Source: Aurantiacibacter sp. MUD11 (lineage in GTDB: Bacteria; Pseudomonadota; Alphaproteobacteria; Sphingomonadales; Sphingomonadaceae). Taken from it: a stretch of 64,000 nucleotides of DNA. Shown in pieces: positions 6,769 through 63,054 of this stretch; the first letter of the stretch is position 1, and every line of letters begins with the position of its first letter. The notes under the pieces are model-generated. The model was given only the letters and a program-made list of their open reading frames with translations. It searched no databases and had not been told where the DNA came from. The DNA is taken from the NCBI RefSeq assembly GCF_026967575.1, contig NZ_CP114054.1, forward strand, positions 372,001 to 436,000. Reading direction: 5' to 3'. Both the position numbers and the translations under genes were made by a program.

Positions 6769-6838
6769 TTATGGCTCCCTGGAACGCGCGACTGGAGCCA
6801 ACTTAGCACTTGCAACATCGAATTTGCAATCAGGCGTG

Positions 6839-7915
6839 TCAGGAGGTCCGATCAAATCGCTGGCCGAGGACCGTCAGCAACTCGTATTGCGAAAGTCCCG
6901 ATTTCTCAGCAGCCTGCGGCAAGCCATAGAAAAGACTACAGAAATCACCTTCCGTGACGTCCGATTTGGTGCAGTCTACGGCAATCATGTCCATCGAGAT
7001 CCTGCCAAGGATCGGCAGGACCGTCCCAGCATGGTGCAATGCACCCGAATTCCCCCAACTGCGCAATATTCCGTCGGCATAACCAAGTGAAATTATTGCG
7101 ATCCTTGTCGGTTCTTTCGCCGTCCACTTTGCATTGTAACCGACCGTGTCGCCAGCCGCGAGATTCCGCACTTGCAGCACCGCAGCCTCGATCTCGGCCA
7201 CCGACTTGATCTCGCCGTCAAGCTCGGGCCGGGGAACGCCTCCGTACAGCGCGAGTCCGGGACGTGTCAGATCGAAGTGGTAGTCCGGTCCCAGGGCGAT
7301 TCCCGCACTGTTGGCGAGGCTGGCCTGGCGGGCCGGCAATGTCGCGACGACCTCGCGGAAGCTACGCAGCTGTTGGTCGTTCTTCGGGCTATCCTCGTCG
7401 GCCGAGGCGAGATGGGACAACAAGGTGTCGACTTCGAGCGACTGAACCTCGGCGCTGCCGATCTCGTCCGGAGACAGACCGAGGCGATTGATCCCCGTAT
7501 CCACCATGACGTGGCATGTGCCGCCACCTGCTGCATGCCAGACCTGCGCCTGGGCGAGCGAGTTTATCACGGGGATCGCGCCCGTCGCCTTGGCATAGGC
7601 AGCCTCTTCGGCATTGGCGACGCCGTGCAGGACCGCAGTGCTCTCGCCCGAAGTGTGCGCCAGCACGTCGGCGACCTCGCTCCAGTGTGCGACGAAGAAC
7701 TGCCGCGCGCCCGCTTCGCGCAGCACCGGCACCACGTGTTCCACCCCCAGTCCATAGGCATCGGCCTTGACCGCTGCACCGGCCGTGGCGGTGCCCGATA
7801 GCCGATCCAGCGTACGCCAGTTGCCTGCCAGTGCATCACGGTCGATGCGCAGGCGCAAGCTCGCCGGTGGGGGTGCGGGAAGGCTCACGAGGCGGTCCGC
7901 GCGGAACCCTGCCAT
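6839..7915 (-). CDS. alr: Alanine racemase
   Basis: Predicted 358-residue PLP enzyme that converts L-Ala to D-Ala for peptidoglycan. The PLP lysine is K50 within AAVKADAYGLG, and the C-terminal beta domain ends with the family-like SQYELLTVLGQRFDR. GRISMDMIAVDC, the substrate-side motif, is also present. The start ATG overlaps the end of the upstream unknown exported gene by 31 bp, which suggests translational coupling. It is the last gene of a minus-strand run that begins with radA; alr, radA and cvpA are often near each other in alphaproteobacteria. Confidence 0.93.
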   Translation of the reverse strand: MAGFRADRLVSLPAPPPASLRLRIDRDALAGNWRTLDRLSGTATAGAAVKADAYGLGVEHVVPVLREAGARQFFVAHWSEVADVLAHTSGESTAVLHGVANAEEAAYAKATGAIPVINSLAQAQVWHAAGGGTCHVMVDTGINRLGLSPDEIGSAEVQSLEVDTLLSHLASADEDSPKNDQQLRSFREVVATLPARQASLANSAGIALGPDYHFDLTRPGLALYGGVPRPELDGEIKSVAEIEAAVLQVRNLAAGDTVGYNAKWTAKEPTRIAIISLGYADGILRSWGNSGALHHAGTVLPILGRISMDMIAVDCTKSDVTEGDFCSLFYGLPQAAEKSGLSQYELLTVLGQRFDRTS

Positions 7916-9135
7916 CTTTGCAGGGCGGGCGTGAAGCTTTCCGGCAATACGCGGTACATTCGCGCAAATCGCTCGGCTATGTCCTCCGGCATCGTCCAGT
8001 CCGCCAGCGGGCCGTTGTCGTCCGTGGAAGCCGGCTGCAGCAGGACCCATGCCGGATCAAGCGCGGGCAGCGAACCATCCGCATATTGCGCAAACCATCC
8101 CTCTGCATCGCCCATGCAGCGATACATGCGCCGCTGGATGGTGGTGGAGCGCTTGATGTAGGCGAAATACTCGTCCCGCGGCTGTTCGGGCGCGTTGCGC
8201 ACGATGTCGATGAATGGCTGCGCGGCTTCGGCCTTGTCCATGTGCCAGCGGTTGCAGGCGAGGATCCAGGCAAACTCACGGTCCGCCCCACCCAGCTGAT
8301 AGGATTCCGGGCTGTAGCCCCGTCCGCGGAAATCGTCATAGGCCGGCCGGATGATACGGTACGAGGCATCATGGTCACCGCCCTCCGCCAGATAGGCCGC
8401 GTAGTTGATCAGCGGGTTGAGGCGGTATTCGCTTTCTTCCGGAAAGCCTTCGAGGAAGTCCGCCAGCACTCCTGCCGCAGCGAGATCGCCGCGCATCAGG
8501 GTGACCGTGCTGGCACGATAGGCCGCGATCATGGTGCGCTCGAATTCCTGGCGCTGCCGGCTCCGCTCGCTGCCCTGCTCCAGCTCGTCGCGCGTGGCAT
8601 CGAGGATGGCCAGTGCCTCCTCGACATAGCCGAGATCGCGCAGGCCTGCGGCACGGGCGATATCGCGGCGCACGAAGGATGCCATCGACAGGCCGAGGCC
8701 AATATCCCGTGCGTCGCGAGCCTCTTCCTCCAGCTGGTCTCGCAGGCGTTGGAGATCGCTTCCCCAGCGCTCTTCCATGGTCGGCCAGAACGGCGCGAAT
8801 GGCCGGAACGACAGCGCCATCAGGGCGGTGTCGATATTCTGGACGGGCGTCAGGCGCGCGGCTTCGAGCGTGTCGGCGCATTCGGCCAGCATGTCCGGCC
8901 CTCGCCGCTGCGGCGTGAGGGTCACCCTGAAATTGCCGAAGCCTTCCAGCGACACCGAGGCATGGTCGTCACCGCAGAAATCGCGATAGGCGTCGCGAAG
9001 GGCCTGCGGCATTGGCGGCGCCGCCTGCCGAACTGTTACGGGCGGCGGCGGAGCCTGTGCCGGCTTGTCCTGCGCGCTTGCCGGAACGGCTGCCAGGACG
9101 ATTGCCATGACCGCGGCAAGCAGGGCCTGCTTCAT
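7885..9135 (-). CDS. Exported protein of unknown function
   Basis: I do not recognise this 416-residue protein. It starts with a clear signal peptide (MKQALLAAVMAIVLAAVPASAQ) followed by a Pro-rich linker. The body is rich in short amphipathic helices with Ala/Leu/Tyr spacing such as PLINYAAYLAEGGDHDASYRII, which look like degenerate TPR/SEL1-type repeats. Cysteines occur in pairs of segments (FCGDD, ECADT, ACNRW, RCMGD). Its ATG overlaps the MFS transporter stop (ATGA) and its end overlaps alr by 31 bp, so it is co-translated with both. A periplasmic role linked to the transporter or cell wall is only an inference from position. Confidence 0.7.
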   Translation of the reverse strand: MKQALLAAVMAIVLAAVPASAQDKPAQAPPPPVTVRQAAPPMPQALRDAYRDFCGDDHASVSLEGFGNFRVTLTPQRRGPDMLAECADTLEAARLTPVQNIDTALMALSFRPFAPFWPTMEERWGSDLQRLRDQLEEEARDARDIGLGLSMASFVRRDIARAAGLRDLGYVEEALAILDATRDELEQGSERSRQRQEFERTMIAAYRASTVTLMRGDLAAAGVLADFLEGFPEESEYRLNPLINYAAYLAEGGDHDASYRIIRPAYDDFRGRGYSPESYQLGGADREFAWILACNRWHMDKAEAAQPFIDIVRNAPEQPRDEYFAYIKRSTTIQRRMYRCMGDAEGWFAQYADGSLPALDPAWVLLQPASTDDNGPLADWTMPEDIAERFARMYRVLPESFTPALQRWQGSARTAS

Positions 9136-10772
9136 GTGGATTCGGCGTCCTCGAAATCCTTCGGCGGGCCGGAGGGAATGCCCCACCATGCCACGATCAC
9201 GCCGAAGGCGACGACTACCCACGTGTACCATAGGCCGGCATAGACATCGCCGGTTCGCGCCACGATGAAGCCCGCAATCAGCGGCAGGAAACCACCAAGG
9301 TAGCCCGCCCCGATGTGATAGGGGATCGACATCGAGGAATAGCGGATTTGCGGCGGGAACATCTCGGTCAGCAGGGCGGCGACGGAACCGTAGGTCAGCG
9401 CCGAGAAAGCCGAGATTACCAGCAGGATCGCCACGATACCGACGATGTTGATGAAGGGCGGCTGCTGCACCGAGAAGTCATAGCCACGTGCCGACAAGGC
9501 TTCCTGCAGGCCGGCACGGCGTGCAGCGCCATCGTCCAGCCAGTCGTCCCCCAGCGCAATCGCCTCGCCGCCGACGGTAACGCCGAGCGTGTCGGCCTCC
9601 ACCCGCTCGTAGGGCACGCCGCTGGCGGTGAGCGTTTCGAGGACCTTGCCGCAATCGGTCTGTTCGCGGTCGAACAGGTCGGCAAAGGGATCGGTGGTGC
9701 ACTGGGTGCCCGTCACCACCACCGGATTGGCAGCCGCCGCTTCCTCGATGCCGGGATTGGCGAGCTTGCCCATCATCCAGAACATCGGGAACACCAGCAG
9801 CAGCGTCATGATCGCCCCGACCAGGATCGGCTTCTTGCGCCCCACCCTGTCCGACCATTTGCCGACCACGACGAAGAAGCTCATCGAGATCAGGCCCGCC
9901 ACCAGCAGGATCATCTCCACCAGCGATGGATCGAGCCGCATGTCGCGCTGGAGGAACGAGAGGCTGGAAAAGAAGGCCGTGTACCAGATCGTAGTGAGGA
10001 TTCCGGTGATGCCGAACAGCGCGATGAAGATGCGCTTCTTGTTGCCGGGATAGGTGAAGCTCTCGACGAAGGGGTTGCCCGACATCTTCCCTTCTTCCTT
10101 CATGGCGCGGAAGACCGGGCTTTCATTGAGCTTCAGGCGCATCCACAAGGAGATGCCGAGCAGCACGACGCTGAGCAGGAAAGGTACGCGCCAGCCCCAT
10201 TCCTCGAAGGCTGCTTCGGGAATGATTGCGCGGCACAGCAGGACCACGACGATCGAGAGGACGAAGCCGCCGACCACGCTCGCCTGGATGAAACTGGTGT
10301 AGAAGCCGCGCTTCTCGGGAGGCGCATGTTCGGCGACATAGATCGCCGCACCGCCATATTCCCCACCGAGGGCGAGGCCCTGCAGGATGCGCAGTACGAT
10401 CACGATGGCTGGCGCCCACAGGCCGATGCTCTCGGCGCTGGGCACCAATCCGACACCGGCGGTGGCAATGCCCATCAGCGTGACGGTGACGAGGAAGGTG
10501 TACTTGCGGCCGAGCTTGTCCCCCAGGTACCCGAACATGATCGCACCCAGCGGGCGGAAGCCGAAGCCGATCGCGAAACCGGCCCAGACGAGCAGGACCT
10601 GCAGCGTTTCGTTATCGCTGGGGAAGAAGGCGCGCCCGATAAGCGTGAACAGCGTGCCGTAGATGAAGAAGTCATACCATTCGAAGATGGTGCCCGCCGA
10701 ACTCGCGCCGATGACGAGGCGGATTTCCTTCTGGGTGGGCTGGTGTACGGTCGTTGCGGCTGTGCTCGCCAT
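9132..10772 (-). CDS. MFS transporter, metabolite:H+ symporter type, with large internal insert
   Basis: This 546-residue inner-membrane protein belongs to the major facilitator superfamily. The MFS loop signature GYLGDKLGRK lies at residues 81-90 and the second-half counterpart GKWSDRVGRKKP at about 304-315. The EWYDFFIYGT opening and GLALGGEYGG are typical of the MHS branch (ProP, ShiA, KgtP relatives). Between the helices ending near 335 and beginning near 440 there is a polar insert of about 100 residues with two cysteines (C358, C374), absent from ordinary MHS members. It is co-transcribed with the IscU-like gene (29 bp upstream) and overlaps the next gene by ATGA. Substrate unknown. Confidence 0.88.
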   Translation of the reverse strand: MASTAATTVHQPTQKEIRLVIGASSAGTIFEWYDFFIYGTLFTLIGRAFFPSDNETLQVLLVWAGFAIGFGFRPLGAIMFGYLGDKLGRKYTFLVTVTLMGIATAGVGLVPSAESIGLWAPAIVIVLRILQGLALGGEYGGAAIYVAEHAPPEKRGFYTSFIQASVVGGFVLSIVVVLLCRAIIPEAAFEEWGWRVPFLLSVVLLGISLWMRLKLNESPVFRAMKEEGKMSGNPFVESFTYPGNKKRIFIALFGITGILTTIWYTAFFSSLSFLQRDMRLDPSLVEMILLVAGLISMSFFVVVGKWSDRVGRKKPILVGAIMTLLLVFPMFWMMGKLANPGIEEAAAANPVVVTGTQCTTDPFADLFDREQTDCGKVLETLTASGVPYERVEADTLGVTVGGEAIALGDDWLDDGAARRAGLQEALSARGYDFSVQQPPFINIVGIVAILLVISAFSALTYGSVAALLTEMFPPQIRYSSMSIPYHIGAGYLGGFLPLIAGFIVARTGDVYAGLWYTWVVVAFGVIVAWWGIPSGPPKDFEDAEST

Positions 10773-54682: not shown

Positions 54683-55648
54683 ATGAGCACGAGTATTCTC
54701 AGCCGATTGCTGGCCCCGTTCGCACTGCTGGCAACGGCCTTTGCCGCACCTTTGGCGGCGCAGCAGGCAAATCCTTACGCCTTCACGCAGGATTACGAAC
54801 CCGCCCCGGCGATCTGGAAGCTGTCGGACGAGGACACCACCATCTACATGCTCGGCACCATCCATCTGCTTCCGGAGGGGTTCCGCTGGCGCAATCCGCA
54901 GCTCGACGCGATCATCGACGAGGCGGACGTGCTGGTGGTGGAAACCACCGAAGAGGAAAGCGACGGCATGATGGAGGCGATCAGCCCGAAGCTGGCCAAC
55001 GTCCTCACCTCGCGCACGCCCACTTCACGCCAGCTGTCCCCGCTCGGACGCACGCGCTGGCGGGAACTGGTGGCGATGTCCGGAATGCCCTTCGAATATG
55101 TCGATTCCCTGCCGGTCATGGTGGCCCTGCTCGGCTTCGGGCAGGCGGGCCTGGAAAGCGATCCCTCCAGCTACGAATATGGTGTCGAGACCGTGCTGGA
55201 GCGGGAATTTACCGCCAGCGGCCGCCCGATCGAGTCCATCGAGGACTTCGGACGCGTGATGTACGGACTGTTCCGCGTCAACGATACCGAGGTCGTGCGT
55301 GAGCTCGACATGCAGTTGCGCGCATGGGGCGGCAAGACGCTGCATGGGCTTTACGACGCGCATGCAAACAACCTGACCGGCGATGCCTACTGGGCGATGG
55401 AGCATGCCTGGGCACGCGGTGAGGTGGCAGAAGACTTCGATCTCGGCTTCGGTGTCGGCACGATCGGCGAGACCTTCCACGAGGTGCTGCTCAATCGCCG
55501 GAATGCCCGGTGGGCGCAGTGGCTGGAAGATCGGCTCGACCAGCCCGGCACGGTGTTGCTGGCGGTTGGCGCCGGACATTTCGAAGGTTCGGATTCGGTG
55601 CTGGCGAAGCTTGAAGAACGCGGGCTTGCGGCCGAGCGGATCAATTGA
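54683..55648 (+). CDS. TraB/GumN family protein, copy 1
   Basis: The 321-residue product has a signal peptide (cleavage near AAPLAAQ) and the TraB/GumN pattern: YMLGTIHLLPEG at about 50-60, VLVVETTEEE, and near the C-terminus LLAVGAGHFEGSDSVLAKLEERG. The GTxH and GxGHxxG motifs and two conserved Glu resemble those of Tiki/EreA-like putative metallohydrolases. It is probably periplasmic. It is the first of three related genes in tandem. Substrate is unknown. Confidence 0.88.
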   Translation: MSTSILSRLLAPFALLATAFAAPLAAQQANPYAFTQDYEPAPAIWKLSDEDTTIYMLGTIHLLPEGFRWRNPQLDAIIDEADVLVVETTEEESDGMMEAISPKLANVLTSRTPTSRQLSPLGRTRWRELVAMSGMPFEYVDSLPVMVALLGFGQAGLESDPSSYEYGVETVLEREFTASGRPIESIEDFGRVMYGLFRVNDTEVVRELDMQLRAWGGKTLHGLYDAHANNLTGDAYWAMEHAWARGEVAEDFDLGFGVGTIGETFHEVLLNRRNARWAQWLEDRLDQPGTVLLAVGAGHFEGSDSVLAKLEERGLAAERIN

Positions 55649-55770
55649 CGGCTGTCAGCAGTCATGCCGAAGCCTCTATAATCACGGAAAACAGGCCGCA
55701 TACACCTTGCGGAAACCGGTCAGGCGCTAGGCATGCGCCGCACCCTCCAAATCCTGCCTCGGAGCCAATG

Positions 55771-56727
55771 ATGAAGCAGCTGTTCGCCCCCCTCGCCGCG
55801 CTTGCCGCCCTCAGCCTGGCGGCCTGTGCCGGTTATCCCGACGCGGTGACAACGCAGGAGCACGAGGCAGCAGCGGAAGAGGCGTCCGGCCCCTCCGGTC
55901 CGGCGCTGTGGCGTGTGGCTGACGAGGATACCACGGTCTACCTGTTCGGCACCGTCCACTTCCTGCCCGAGGGCATTGACTGGTTCACCCCGCAGATCGA
56001 GCAGGCGCTGGTCAGCGCCGGCCAGTTCGTTTCCGAAGTCGATACCAGCGCCATTCCGGAGGTCGTCCCCGGTGAAGCTCCGCCGCCCGAGGCGCTGGCG
56101 ATCGCGCAGATGCAGATGCAGCTGGCCCAGCTCACCACCGGTGGCACACTGCGCGACCTGATGAGCGAGGAAGACCGGGCCGAATACGAAGCCGTCGTAG
56201 AGGCCATCGGTCTGCCGTTGGAACCGCTCGACCAGTTCGAGCCGTGGTTCGCCTACATGAACATCCTGCAGATTGGCCTGGTGCAACAGGGTCTGGATCC
56301 CTCGTTGGGCGTCGAGCGGACGCTGGATGCCTATATCGAAGGCAAGGATCGCGCCGCGTTCGAGACACTGGAGCAGCAGTTCCTCTTCCTCGACAGCCTG
56401 CCGGTGGAATCGCAGCTCGACCTGCTTGACGAGACGGTCGAAAACCTGCCTGAACTCGGCAACGGCCTACGCACGATGGTCGACAGGTGGATGGCTGGTG
56501 ATGCGGAAGGCCTCGCCGCCATCATCAACGAGGAAATGACCGATCCGGCGGTGGTCGAAACGCTGCTTACGAGCCGGAACGCGAATTGGGCAGAATGGAT
56601 CGATAACCGCATGGACCAGCCCGGAACCGTCTTCATCGCCGTCGGCGCTGGTCACCTGGCCGGCGACGGCAGCGTGCAGGCTTACCTGGCAGAGCGCGGC
56701 TTCGCGGCGGAGCGGGTCGGGCATTGA
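55771..56727 (+). CDS. TraB/GumN family lipoprotein, copy 2
   Basis: The 318-residue product is a predicted lipoprotein (LAAC, C19 with this start). It repeats the family motifs YLFGTVHFLPEG, VSEVDTS and FIAVGAGHLAGDGSVQAYLAERG. GGAG at 55761-55764 fits ATG 55771 better than the adjacent ATG 55768. A TATAAT hexamer at 55677-55682 without a good -35 may mark an internal promoter. Its stop overlaps the TTG start of copy 3. Confidence 0.87.
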   Translation: MKQLFAPLAALAALSLAACAGYPDAVTTQEHEAAAEEASGPSGPALWRVADEDTTVYLFGTVHFLPEGIDWFTPQIEQALVSAGQFVSEVDTSAIPEVVPGEAPPPEALAIAQMQMQLAQLTTGGTLRDLMSEEDRAEYEAVVEAIGLPLEPLDQFEPWFAYMNILQIGLVQQGLDPSLGVERTLDAYIEGKDRAAFETLEQQFLFLDSLPVESQLDLLDETVENLPELGNGLRTMVDRWMAGDAEGLAAIINEEMTDPAVVETLLTSRNANWAEWIDNRMDQPGTVFIAVGAGHLAGDGSVQAYLAERGFAAERVGH

Positions 56728-57596
56728 TCGGCAGGCTGCTCAAATCCCTGGCTCTGGCCGGGACGCTGTGGCTGGCAGGCTGTGCCGACCAGTTCGTGCC
56801 CGAAAGCGAGTGGCCCGAGGCTTCCCCGGCCATCTGGGAAGTCAGCAACGCTCAAGGCGAAAAGGGCTGGCTGTTCGGCACGGTCCACGCCCTGCCGCCT
56901 GACCTGATCTGGGGCACCCCGATGCTCGACGATGCCTTCTCGCAGTCGGGCGTGCTGGTGGTGGAGGTGACCAATCTCGACGCCGAGTACGGCCAGACGC
57001 TGATCGAGACGCTGTCCCGCACGCCGGGCCAGCCACCCCTGTCCACTCGTGTCGAGCCGGCCGAGCGTGACGAGCTGCGCGCGCTGATGCAGGCGGCCGA
57101 CATGGACGATGACGATTTTACCGACATCGAGACCTGGGCCGCGGCCCTCACCCTGTCGGGTGCGGTGCGCACCGGCGATCCGCGCAACGGTGTCGACCGC
57201 GCGATGATTGCTGCCGCCGACGAGATCGTCGGGCTGGAGAGCTACGGTCGGCAGATGAACATGTTCGACACGCTGAGCGAGGCTGCGCAGAGCGACCTGC
57301 TTTACGGCGTCGCCCGCGTCCACGCCCAGGGCGGAAGCGATGCCATGCTCTCGGCCTGGGTCAGCGGAGATGCGGAGACCATGGGCGAGCATGTCAATTC
57401 CGCGCTGGATTTCTCGCCCGAACTGCGCCGCGTGCTGCTGACCGATCGCAACCGCCGCTGGACGGCGCAGATTTCCGCGCTGATCGACGAAGGGCGCGCG
57501 CCTTTCGTCGCCGTGGGCACCGGACACCTGGTCGGCAGCGAAAGCGTGGTCGAGATGCTGGGTGAGCAGGGCTTCACCGTCAGGCGCATCCAGTAG
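56724..57596 (+). CDS. TraB/GumN family lipoprotein, copy 3
   Basis: The 290-residue product is a predicted lipoprotein (LAGC, C20) and the most divergent of the three. Motifs are WLFGTVHALP, VLVVEVTNLD and FVAVGTGHLVGSESVVEMLGEQG. The start is TTG inside TTGA, overlapping the stop of copy 2, so translation is probably coupled. Two of the three copies are anchored to a membrane while the first appears soluble, hinting at a shared periplasmic function with different locations. Confidence 0.85.
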   Translation: MIGRLLKSLALAGTLWLAGCADQFVPESEWPEASPAIWEVSNAQGEKGWLFGTVHALPPDLIWGTPMLDDAFSQSGVLVVEVTNLDAEYGQTLIETLSRTPGQPPLSTRVEPAERDELRALMQAADMDDDDFTDIETWAAALTLSGAVRTGDPRNGVDRAMIAAADEIVGLESYGRQMNMFDTLSEAAQSDLLYGVARVHAQGGSDAMLSAWVSGDAETMGEHVNSALDFSPELRRVLLTDRNRRWTAQISALIDEGRAPFVAVGTGHLVGSESVVEMLGEQGFTVRRIQ

Positions 57597-59437: not shown

Positions 59438-60451
59438 TCAGCTGGCGGCCTCGATGGCACTCTGCAGGCGCATGGCTGCGGCATCCCCCTGACGCCGGGC
59501 AATGATCGGACCGGCTATCGCCCGCGCCGTTTCCACTTGTCCCAGGTTCAGCAGCGCCTCGGCGTAGAGCAGGCGCGCGGGGTCGTGGTCCTGCAGTTCC
59601 GCCTCACTCGCTTGCAGTCGCTGGCGGACCGCCTCCCAGTCTCCATCCCAAGCCTCGACCCGCGCCTGCTGGTAGACGAATTCGCGATCCAGCGGACGGG
59701 TCTGCGCACCATAGGCGATCAGGTGACGCGTGACGTCGCGCTCACCGGCTGCTTCCGCAGCCCCGATGGCGGCCAGCAGCGCCGGCCGGTCGAGCGGCAC
59801 GATCTCGATGATCCGCAGGTACTGCGACATCGCCTGGAAATGCTCGCCTCGCGCGTCGGCAAGGCGGGCGGCAACGAACAGCGTCTCGACCCGATCGGGC
59901 GCGGCATCCTGTGCCAGGGCAACGGCTTCTTCCGCTGCCTGGAGGTTGTCACGATTGAGATGGAAGCTGGCCTCCGCGCTGTAGAGCTTGGCCTTTTCGC
60001 CGGTAGCCCTGCGGCCTCGCAGGAAGGCTTCCATGGCCCCGGCTTCGTCATTCTCCAGCGCTGCCAGCAAGCCCCGCAGGCGCCAGGCTTCGGCACTGGC
60101 ATCGTCACCGATCAGTTCCCGAGCGCCGGTGACGTCGCCTGCCTGCAGCCGTCCTTCGGCCGCGATCAATGTCTGTTCGCCGGGATTGCCGCCGGCTTGC
60201 CGGATGCGTTCGATCGTCGCCAGCACCTCTTCGCCCTGCCCCATGGCCAGCTGCGCGCGCGCCAACAGCTCGAGCGCCTCGATATTGTCGCCGTCGTCGA
60301 CCAGCGCCGCCAGCGCGAGGTCGCGCGCGGCGATATAGTCCTGCGCGTCGAATGCTTGTTGCGCGTCAGTCAGCGCATCGCTCCCCAGAAAGGAACAACT
60401 GCCGAGGCCAATTGCCGCGCAAATTGTCAGGAAATGACGCACCGTTTTCAT
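59438..60451 (-). CDS. TPR lipoprotein, paralogue A beside the PEP-CTERM gene
   Basis: The predicted 337-residue lipoprotein has LGSC with lipidated C19, then helical TPR-like repeats. An in-frame ATG at 60463 would add MRLA. Its N-terminal 110 residues match paralogue B (61419-62933) closely: ALELLARAQLAMGQGEEVLATIERI against VLELMARTQLQMGNGEAARATLDRL. PEP-CTERM systems commonly carry TPR lipoproteins (PrsT-like), and these two are shorter. It is divergent from the PEP-CTERM gene, so the 150 bp between them may regulate both. Confidence 0.8.
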   Translation of the reverse strand: MKTVRHFLTICAAIGLGSCSFLGSDALTDAQQAFDAQDYIAARDLALAALVDDGDNIEALELLARAQLAMGQGEEVLATIERIRQAGGNPGEQTLIAAEGRLQAGDVTGARELIGDDASAEAWRLRGLLAALENDEAGAMEAFLRGRRATGEKAKLYSAEASFHLNRDNLQAAEEAVALAQDAAPDRVETLFVAARLADARGEHFQAMSQYLRIIEIVPLDRPALLAAIGAAEAAGERDVTRHLIAYGAQTRPLDREFVYQQARVEAWDGDWEAVRQRLQASEAELQDHDPARLLYAEALLNLGQVETARAIAGPIIARRQGDAAAMRLQSAIEAAS

Positions 60452-60563
60452 CGCCAGTCTCATTAGGCGCGAAGTTCAAATTTTCGGTGAACCGTCGAGA
60501 ATTCTTACAAATGCGACTCTCCGGGAAGGCCGTTAACCATCGTCAGCCCCGGATTCCGCGACA

Positions 60564-60579
60564 TGGCACGGCAATTGCT
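60564..60579 (+). promoter_or_regulatory. Sigma-54 promoter (-24/-12) of the PEP-CTERM gene
   Basis: TGGCACGGCAATTGCT matches the RpoN consensus TGGCACG-N4-TTGCW at every fixed position, with GG at 60565-60566 and GC at 60577-60578. The start of transcription should be near 60590, leaving a leader of about 26 nt that contains GGGGG just before ATG 60616. Sigma-54 regulation with PrsK/PrsR is known for PEP-CTERM proteins elsewhere. Confidence 0.8.
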
Positions 60580-60615
60580 TCGCATGCGTCAACCACATTC
60601 CTAGGGGGTATTCGG

Positions 60616-61350
60616 ATGTTGAAACGACTTTTCGCGGCTGTTCTGGCCTTCGCCACGGTCGGCGTCGCCTCGCCGGCTCTGGCCGATCCAATCACGTTGG
60701 ACAGCAGTGATATCGGCAGCAGCTTCACCATTGATTTCGATGGCTTCGTCGACAGTGCCGGCAACACCGTTGACGGCCTGTCGAGCTCGATCACCTTCAC
60801 TCTCGATGAAGTGACCGGCGACAGCTATTCGTTCAGCTACCAGGTCAACAACACCACCGACAGCGGGCTGACATCGAACCTTTCGAGCTTCGCCTTCAAC
60901 GTCGATCCGGACATTTCCGGCGCGAGTGTCGATGGTGCTTACAGCTTTGCCTTCGTCACCGATGGCGCCGCCAACGATCCCAGCTATCCGAACCAGATCG
61001 GTGCGGTGGACGTTTGCTTCAAGGCGGCCAACAGCGGTTCCTGCTCCAACAGCGGCGGCGTTGCCGAGGGCCAGAGCGGATCGGGCACGCTGACGCTCAA
61101 CTTCGATCCGGACGCATCGTCGATCACGCTCGATGACTTCTACGTGCGTTACCAGGGCATCACCGGTGCCGGCGACGTGACCTCGGCCAGCGGCCAGGGC
61201 ACTACGACTTCCGGCAGCACCAGCGGCACGCAGGTTCCGGCTCCGGGCATGATGGGCCTGTTCGCCCTCGCCCTCGCCGGTCTCGGCCTGCTGCGCCGTC
61301 GCCGCCGCGACGAAGAAAGCGAAGGCGGCCTGCAACCGGCCTACGCCTGA
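60616..61350 (+). CDS. PEP-CTERM protein, 'cistern'-like, exosortase substrate
   Basis: The 244-residue product has a signal peptide (cleavage after A23 of SPALA), a Ser/Thr/Asp/Gly-rich beta domain and a C-terminal sorting signal: VPAPG (207-211), a hydrophobic helix (212-226) and RRRRR (227-231). Exosortase XrtA should cleave at the motif and attach the protein to the surface. The N-terminus ITLDSSDIGSSFTIDFDGFV fits the 'cistern' family as I remember it. A 13-residue tail after the arginines is longer than usual. A sigma-54 promoter precedes it. Confidence 0.88.
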   Translation: MLKRLFAAVLAFATVGVASPALADPITLDSSDIGSSFTIDFDGFVDSAGNTVDGLSSSITFTLDEVTGDSYSFSYQVNNTTDSGLTSNLSSFAFNVDPDISGASVDGAYSFAFVTDGAANDPSYPNQIGAVDVCFKAANSGSCSNSGGVAEGQSGSGTLTLNFDPDASSITLDDFYVRYQGITGAGDVTSASGQGTTTSGSTSGTQVPAPGMMGLFALALAGLGLLRRRRRDEESEGGLQPAYA

Positions 61351-61370
61351 TCTTCGGGTGAAATGATCAG

Positions 61371-61410
61371 AAAGGCGCCGTTCCTCGCGGGGCGGCGCCT
61401 TTTCCTTTTG
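61371..61410 (+). terminator. Rho-independent terminator after the PEP-CTERM gene
   Basis: The stem AAGGCGCCG (61372-61380) pairs with CGGCGCCTT (61393-61401) over a 12 nt loop and is followed by TTCCTTTTG. It lies 21 bp after the PEP-CTERM stop and ends just before the convergent TPR gene stop. Confidence 0.8.
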
Positions 61411-61418
61411 GGCCGTGC

Positions 61419-62933
61419 CTATCCGCTGCGCGCGGCCGCCAGGTGCTCGGCGATGGTGCTGTTGTCCGGCGCCAGCCGGGCGGCACGTTCGAGCAGCTCG
61501 ATGCCCCGGGCGCGATCGGTGCCGGTCTGCACCATCAGCCATCCGGCGGTGTCCATGATGTTGGGCTGGTCCGGTGCCAGCTGCAGGGCCCGCTGCGCGA
61601 TTTCCAGGGCCTCCTCGGCCTCCCCTACCCGGCTCTTGGCATAGGCCAGGTTGTTCAGGACCATGGCGTTGGAATCGCCGGTCCAGCCCCGCAGGTCCTC
61701 ATAGGCGGCGATGGCAGCGCGCCAGCGACCGTTGCGAAGGTGCCCGTCTGCCTGCGCCAGCAGGTTGGCCACGCGTTCCTCGGGCGGCGCACTGGCAAGC
61801 GCGGCGCCAATATCGTCCGTGCGTCCCGCTGCGCGCGCGGCTTCGGCAAACAGGGCGAGGTCGCGCGGGGTGCCCTGTGCGCTGTTCGCCAGCGGACGAA
61901 TGGTGTCATAGGCGGCTGCGGCATTGCCGGTCGCCAGCTGCGCCCGTGCCAGCAGGCGACGCGCCTCCGCGCTCGCCGGAGCCTGCCGCGACAGCGCGGT
62001 CAGGCGCGGAAGGGCCAGTTCGGGGAGGTCCAGCTCCACCAGCGCGCGTGAATAGAGCAACTGCTGGCGCGCGTCGTCGCGATCCTCGTCCGCCTGCAGG
62101 ATTTCGCGTACCTCGCGCCAGTCACCCTCTTCGGCCGCCAGGCGTGCCGTGAGATAGCGAAGGTCCGGGTCTTCGGGGTTGCGCTTCGTGGCATCCTCGA
62201 TCAGCGGACGCGCCTCGGCCAGCCGGCCACTGTCGCCCAGCACGCCGATGCGACCCAACAGGGCAGCGCGCGACTCCGGCCAGGCTTCATGGGCCCGTTC
62301 GAAGAAGCGCAAGGCTTCGCCAGTTGCGCCACGGAACTGGGCGATCTGGGCACTGGCAAGCAGCGCATCGAGACCTTCGGGATCGGCTTCGCGCGCCTGC
62401 CGCGCCAGTTCCACTGCGCGCCCGGCATTGCCGCGCTGATATTCGAAACGGGCATAGTCCGCGTAGAGTCGTGAGCGGTTGCCGCTGGCCGCTGCCCCGC
62501 GGGCAAAAGCCTCCGCCGCGGCCTCGGCGCCTCCCAGGCCCAGATGCGCCAAGGCGGCGATCCGCAGGCCCTCGGCGCTGCCAACCGATTCCCCGGCGGC
62601 GAGCGCGCTTTCCCACTCGCCCTGCAACACCATGGCCTCGGCCAGCAGCAGGTTGAAATCGTCGGGGCGCTGCCCTGTCGCGGCCAGGCGGTCGAGTGTG
62701 GCGCGGGCGGCCTCGCCATTGCCCATCTGCAATTGCGTGCGTGCCATCAGTTCCAGTACGACGGGGTTGGCCTCGTCTTCCTGCAACAGCGCACCAAGGT
62801 CCAGCCGGGCTTCGTTGAAGCGATGCTCGGCATAGGCCTGCTCGGCACGGTCAAGGCGTTCTTCAGGTGAAACACCACAGGCTGCCAGGACCAGTGCCAA
62901 CGCGCCGATGGTGGAATTGCGGAGTGTCTTCAT
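61419..62933 (-). CDS. TPR lipoprotein, paralogue B beside the PEP-CTERM gene
   Basis: The predicted 504-residue lipoprotein (LAAC, C19) is made almost entirely of TPR-like repeats, ending in the well-kept unit NAMVLNNLAYAKSRVGEAEEALEIAQRALQLAPDQPN. An in-frame ATG at 62945 is an alternative start. It is longer than paralogue A but shares its N-terminal arrangement. It converges on the PEP-CTERM gene and is divergent from ychF. A scaffold role for exopolysaccharide or PEP-CTERM export is the family-based guess. Confidence 0.85.
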   Translation of the reverse strand: MKTLRNSTIGALALVLAACGVSPEERLDRAEQAYAEHRFNEARLDLGALLQEDEANPVVLELMARTQLQMGNGEAARATLDRLAATGQRPDDFNLLLAEAMVLQGEWESALAAGESVGSAEGLRIAALAHLGLGGAEAAAEAFARGAAASGNRSRLYADYARFEYQRGNAGRAVELARQAREADPEGLDALLASAQIAQFRGATGEALRFFERAHEAWPESRAALLGRIGVLGDSGRLAEARPLIEDATKRNPEDPDLRYLTARLAAEEGDWREVREILQADEDRDDARQQLLYSRALVELDLPELALPRLTALSRQAPASAEARRLLARAQLATGNAAAAYDTIRPLANSAQGTPRDLALFAEAARAAGRTDDIGAALASAPPEERVANLLAQADGHLRNGRWRAAIAAYEDLRGWTGDSNAMVLNNLAYAKSRVGEAEEALEIAQRALQLAPDQPNIMDTAGWLMVQTGTDRARGIELLERAARLAPDNSTIAEHLAAARSG

Positions 62934-63054
62934 GGCAACCGCCATAGGCCGAAATGGTTGAGAACCCCTTCACCACGGCAATGCTGGTATTGTGCCCGCG
63001 TGGCGGCTAAGGCGCGCGCAACTGACATCCAATTCGCACAAAGGCACGAAACCC

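Follow-up and report, generated by a model that had tools for sequence, protein, structure and literature searches.

The cistern-family PEP-CTERM gene in the window, by which we mean the whole 64-kb stretch of DNA analysed here (positions 372001–436000 of a 2.79-Mb genome in a single contig), is very probably transcribed from a genuine sigma-54 promoter belonging to the PrsK/PrsR type, as judged from the sequence. The -24/-12 site, TGGCACGGCAATTGCT, occupies 60564–60579 on the forward strand. As the first-pass annotation had claimed, every fixed letter of the TGGCACG-N4-TTGC-T consensus is present, and GG at -24 and GC at -12 are separated by the 10 nt that define a sigma-54 site. The claim that the site is unique in the window also held up: the 12-position consensus matches once in the 64 kb, whereas 100 dinucleotide shuffles averaged 0.03 matches and three of them held a full match. 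When one mismatch was allowed in TGGCACN5TTGC, the window contained 6 matches against 5.93 expected, so that only the perfect site stands out. The site ends 36 nt before the cistern start codon, and its geometry predicts a transcription start at 60590 (+), 12 nt after the C of the -12 element. The ribosome binding site that had been proposed downstream is readable in the sequence as AGGGGG at 60603–60608 (+), followed by the ATG at 60616. No sigma-70-like promoter was seen in 60300–61500, where only 0.1 would be expected, so this absence carries little weight.

The gene itself (60616–61350, +) encodes a 244-residue protein of the cistern family (NF033947, 217.8 bits, cut-off 60) with a signal-peptide-like start and a C-terminal VPAPG...RRRRR sorting tail. 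The PEP-CTERM domain PF07589 scored 20.3 bits in one search, just below the cut-off of 20.7, and 24.8 bits, above it, in another, and the PepA family model NF033554 reached only 25.3 bits (cut-off 80). The named homologues of highest identity are from Aurantiacibacter and Erythrobacter, which makes an Erythrobacteraceae-type sphingomonad the probable host. A terminator-like stem, AAGGCGCCG/CGGCGCCTT, with a T-rich tail was read directly at 61372–61409 (+), with a smaller hairpin computed at 61389–61401; the transcript is therefore probably monocistronic.

Across the whole genome, the exact pattern TGGCACGN4TTGCW occurs at three sites, which are the cistern promoter, the pspA promoter and the promoter of a P-II/ammonium-transporter pair. 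The pspA and P-II/ammonium-transporter genes are typical sigma-54 genes. The pspA product matches PF04012 and pspF is encoded nearby (TIGR02974, 471.7 bits, cut-off 443.55), while the third site lies upstream of a P-II gene followed by the ammonium transporter gene. The relaxed pattern TGGCAYN5TTGCW gave 6 matches against 3 for the reversed control, and the remaining three of the six read TGGCATC and are inside long open frames. The genome has two PEP-CTERM genes over the Pfam cut-off, and a PrsR/sigma-54 promoter was found only before the cistern gene. The other gene (L111/L100, start about 1467050, reverse strand), before which the PrsR/sigma-54 pattern was not found, encodes a long Ser/Gly/Thr-repeat protein.

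Conservation is the strongest evidence that the predicted sigma-54 site is genuine. We compared 66 cistern genes, namely the one in the window and those of 65 related loci, after dropping L041, which came without upstream sequence. A sigma-54 site scoring at least 9 of 12 was found directly before 50 of the 66 genes, and 12 of these sites are perfect. Four further cistern genes are second behind another PEP-CTERM gene and have the sigma-54 site before the leader gene. In a few relatives (L026, L032, L042, L048, and L067) the start codon is uncertain, which makes the distances to it approximate. Twelve genes (L029–L032, L037, L056, L065, L066, L069, L071, L074, and L076) have a different upstream sequence without a sigma-54 site, a promoter swap, and seven of them share a box like TTCCCTAATGAGACA. 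Loss of RpoN as the cause of the missing sites was rejected, because RpoN and PrsR are encoded in all 12 genomes; the cistern gene is thus not dependent on a sigma-54 promoter everywhere. Overall, RpoN was found in all 50 genomes tested, including all 16 of those without a direct site, and PrsR in 49. This sample covered 34 of the 49 site-bearing relatives. The single genome with the promoter and no PrsR at the threshold used is a metagenome assembly (L086).

Every protein required by the PrsK/PrsR reading is encoded in the genome, as RpoN, PrsK, PrsR, and XrtA were all found. RpoN matched TIGR02395 with 418.4 bits (cut-off 277.35) and PrsR matched TIGR02915 with 683.3 bits (cut-off 502.6). 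The PrsK frame (TIGR02916, 498 bits, cut-off 300) directly precedes PrsR, so that the two curated matches are in tandem (locus L019, open frame 6782–9184 and gene 9181–10551), and a glycosyltransferase of the XrtA type precedes the PrsK frame. Exosortase A (XrtA) lies at 536 kb (TIGR03109, 336.5 bits, cut-off 208) among polysaccharide genes of the XrtA type. At this locus the XrtA deacetylase, ATPase, FemAB, amidotransferase, and chain-length proteins are over their cut-offs, the tyrosine kinase is below its own (190.3 bits, cut-off 230.65), and one open reading frame has no match. No exosortase besides XrtA was found by an exosortase family search of the genome. A membrane protein that resembles exosortases by eye is encoded between pspF and pspA (L018:10880–11710, reverse strand); it matched no NCBIfam model up to E = 1e-10 and no Pfam model. 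PF00158 has eight matches in the genome, five of which are strong sigma-54 activators. Besides PrsR, these include PspF, NtrX, and an NtrC-like protein (541.8 bits, just below the cut-off of 558.6). The fifth (L012, 856746) has a receiver domain and is over none of 25 NCBIfam model cut-offs.

The proposed link to PrsK/PrsR regulation gains support from these proteins together with a 17-nt box of the PrsR type upstream of the sigma-54 site. Haft et al. 2006 (PMC1569441) assigned to PrsR a 17-nt motif 1 that ends in TTTACA and precedes the sigma-54 motif by 62.8 nt on average (range 32–92 nt). The corresponding box in the window, CGTCGAGAATTCTTACA at 60493–60509 (+), ends in CTTACA, has two mismatches to the local consensus GTCGG-N5-TTTACA and is 54 nt from the sigma-54 site, within the published range. 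When offsets of 40–110 were allowed, this consensus was found in the 50 cistern promoters with 0–3 mismatches, and the best offsets were only -70 (21 promoters), -69 (7), -60 (4), and -59 (18). The promoters therefore form two spacing classes, -69/-70 (28/50) and -59/-60 (22/50). Motif 1 is also present in three of the four leader-gene promoters. A family scan for motif 1 combined with the sigma-54 site gave 95 matches in 61 of 149 genomes, against 3 for the reversed pattern, and 88 genomes had no match to this strict pattern. The offsets were again split, into 57–61 (45 matches) and 66–71 (50), with none at 62–65; the pattern allowed offsets of 48–71, which sets the upper edge of the second block and not the gap. 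Such a split by one helical turn would be expected if PrsR has to face the polymerase, and it offers a natural experiment on the facing of a close-in enhancer-binding protein. In the host genome alone, the PrsR pattern had 6 matches against 9 in the reversed control, and only two of the six contain TGGCACG...TTGC; the other four look like chance matches.

These two host matches are the cistern promoter and the promoter of a gene for an 83-residue protein with two membrane helices by eye (L090:1601–1852, genome 964995–965243). This second gene is unlinked to the cistern gene. Its promoter, found with the PrsR pattern, has the sigma-54 site TGGCACGGGGTTTGCG and two copies of motif 1. In the published system, a few PrsR/sigma-54 sites precede genes other than those for PEP-CTERM proteins (PMC1569441). 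The small protein of about 80 residues (like MFRKIGRLFVIKTRFEAFLIIYALALGAMDRG) matched no model of Pfam or NCBIfam up to E = 1. It has 2876 homologues, the best 120 of which are mostly unnamed or 'hypothetical', with one 'YiaAB two helix domain-containing' protein, and a homologue is present in 81 of 119 family genomes. We read 30 of these 81 matches and 23 had a site scoring at least 9. One of them (L174) was set aside as spurious, with no T before GG and a motif 1 with 6 mismatches, which left a credible sigma-54 site in 22 of the 30 loci and 8 loci without one. All 22 promoters with a credible site carry motif 1 with at most one mismatch. Of the 95 promoters from the family scan, 31 were read, namely 29 of the 93 in relatives and both of those in the host genome. 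Among these 31, 14 stand before a PEP-CTERM gene and 17 before the small two-helix gene, one of which is frame-broken. The 14 PEP-CTERM targets are 5 cistern genes, including that of the host, and 9 others. The family-promoter and cistern sets are not independent, as some of their sequences are identical (L129 and L034; L143 and L087).

The spacer from motif 1 to the -24 box shows little conservation outside GTTAACCA and an element of consensus GC..AAATCC at -15 to -6, which in the window is at 60548–60560 (+). Column conservation was taken from 35 representatives below 60% identity. Of the 50 cistern promoters, 41 have GTTAACCA with at most one mismatch at -30 to -32 from the site, and 44 have it with at most two. 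In the window this box reads GTTAACCAT (60532–60540, +) and holds TTAACCAT (60533–60540), which is the ungapped CtrA motif (PMC6180460, PMC3692519). A second conserved AACC is at +28 to +31 from the site among the 35 representatives, just past the predicted start, and corresponds to GTCAACCA at 60588–60595 (+). In the family scan, TTAA[CG] was located at -29 to -33 in 51 of the 95 promoters, 41 of them at exactly -31, and outside this block it occurred in at most 3 promoters per position. The box is absent from the other 44, which are spread across 22 of the 61 genomes. The small-gene promoters have TTAA at -29 to -33 in 21 of 22 cases, and at exactly +26, the predicted +1, in 15 of 22. That two unlinked genes share the same three-part layout favours a design common to the regulon over the descent of a single locus. 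The idea that sigma-54 promoters in general contain the box was rejected for the two other full-consensus promoters of this genome, those of pspA and P-II, which lack it. Nor is the box likely to stem from the divergent TPR gene that lies upstream of the cistern gene, because the small-gene promoter with the same box has other neighbours in the host genome. A covarying dyad before the -24 box was also rejected, as the consensus is weakly symmetric and the arms show no covariation beyond column frequencies.

Taken from the sequence, the most likely arrangement is an enhancer-dependent PrsR/sigma-54 promoter with a second layer formed by CtrA or another TTAACCA-binding factor. PrsK would phosphorylate PrsR, and a PrsR dimer would bind motif 1 (60493–60509), 54 bp before the -24 box. 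The AAA+ domain of PrsR would then contact and open the RpoN-polymerase parked at 60564–60579. The resulting short monocistronic mRNA, predicted to begin at about 60590, would be translated into the cistern protein, to be sorted to the surface by exosortase A. That the -24/-12 match arose by chance and the cistern gene is read from some other promoter is very improbable. The few shuffled windows that held a match and the 12 relatives that use something else would allow it, but the site is conserved across genera whose spacers have diverged, a box of the PrsR type stands upstream of it and the regulators are encoded in the same genome.

The second layer may be CtrA acting on two TTAACCA boxes, one near -57 and the other at the start site, which would add a cell-cycle-linked control to the PrsR/sigma-54 explanation and not replace it. 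We consider this composite promoter a real possibility, a little short of an even chance. The gene for CtrA (NF045991, 425.1 bits, cut-off 350) lies some 2 kb from rpoN, and the box, which equals the published ungapped CtrA motif, holds a fixed place in the cistern, small-gene and wider family promoters and stands out among the columns of the 35 representatives. Its absence from the pspA and P-II promoters of the host points the same way. In the genome, GTTAACCAT occurs 16 times against 2 in the reversed control. Among its other copies, one lies 40 nt upstream of a cheA-like gene, one precedes a PilZ gene and one coincides with the start of a divIC gene. The only other PEP-CTERM gene over the cut-off has a copy in the other orientation about 110 nt upstream. 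However, a scan of the genes at other boxes (10 of 16) gave no Pfam match for four, and three more were DUF87, CHASE2, and extensin-like genes, kinds that are not known as CtrA targets, so that most scanned genes are not obvious targets. No full TTAA-N7-TTAA site was seen at the cistern promoter, the second box in the window, downstream of the site, reads GTCAACCA rather than TTAA, and 44 family promoters do without the box. Known activation by CtrA takes place from -35 (PMC6180460), not from near -57. In CtrA-regulated alphaproteobacterial promoters the box lies near -35 for activation or over -10 for repression (PMC6180460, PMC3692519), whereas the candidate boxes here flank a sigma-54 promoter. 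The place of one box over the start hints at repression or timing, with the two boxes on either side of the polymerase. Alternatively, the TTAACCA boxes may bind another conserved factor, either a regulator or a protein that bends the DNA and so brings PrsR close to the polymerase. The fixed place between enhancer and promoter and the two spacings one helical turn apart suit an architectural protein, but the exact sequence is the known CtrA motif and an AT-rich bend needs no such exact letters, which makes this a plausible but rather doubtful reading. CenR was rejected as the binder, since it recognises TGA-N8-TGA (PMC9275681), unlike the TTAACCA box.

If the composite reading with CtrA is right, the sphingomonad exosortase regulon may be wired into the cell cycle through CtrA half-sites at about -57 and +1, with the two-helix membrane protein of about 80 residues as a new part of the PEP-CTERM system. 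We put this forward tentatively. Production of PEP-CTERM proteins would then require both a signal sensed by PrsK and the permission of CtrA. With the fixed TTAACCA boxes, a possible tie between surface-protein sorting and the CtrA network in sphingomonads can be tested concretely and cheaply, and the small membrane protein would be a new regulon member whose deletion phenotype can be searched for. Exopolysaccharide in Sphingomonas melonis is said to be governed by CtrA (cited within PMC8921679). The titles and abstract openings of the literature searched gave no link between CtrA and PEP-CTERM promoters.

The promoter type was already published in 2006, and the RpoN dependence of such a gene in 2023. 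The system of PMC1569441 shares with the host the order of motif 1, -24 (GG)/-12 (GC) and a single PEP-CTERM gene, as well as PrsK, PrsR, and an EpsH-type exosortase in the genome, with PrsK and PrsR usually in tandem in the published system. Its motif 2 ends 23–221 nt before the start codon, compared with 36 nt here. Most PEP-CTERM genes with such promoters have more than 200 nt of upstream intergenic space there (PMC1569441), whereas the space upstream of the cistern gene is 152 nt. The host promoter also differs in the TTAACCA box before -24 and the other near +1, a type of box that the promoter section of PMC1569441 does not mention. Two further differences are the two helical-turn classes of motif 1 and the unlinked small membrane gene under the same promoter. 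Neither the fixed pair of TTAACCA boxes nor a small membrane protein as a regulon member was found in the parts of PMC1569441 and PMC9850573 that we drew on.

The pepA gene of Aquincola tertiaricarbonis RN12 has a mapped transcription start, and its high transcription requires rpoN1 (PMC9850573). Like the cistern gene, pepA encodes a PEP-CTERM protein and has -24/-12 elements, in its case TGGCAC/CTGCTT; prsT lies alongside it. It differs in organism and in PEP-CTERM family, and the rpoN dependence that was measured there is inferred for the cistern gene (PMC9850573). In the window, the cistern gene is flanked by two genes for PrsT-like TPR proteins with lipoprotein-like starts, both below the TIGR02917 cut-off of 312.2 bits: a divergent one upstream (59438–60463, reverse strand, 39.7 bits) and a convergent one downstream (61419–62945, reverse strand, 187 bits). 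A homologue of the downstream gene is present in 65 of the 66 cistern loci, a strong synteny. The two flanking genes are 35% identical to each other, and the upstream one looks like a lineage-specific duplicate. Elsewhere in the window, two adjoining genes of the TraB/PrgY/gumN family were found at 55645–57596 (+) (PF01963, 223.6 and 174.4 bits).
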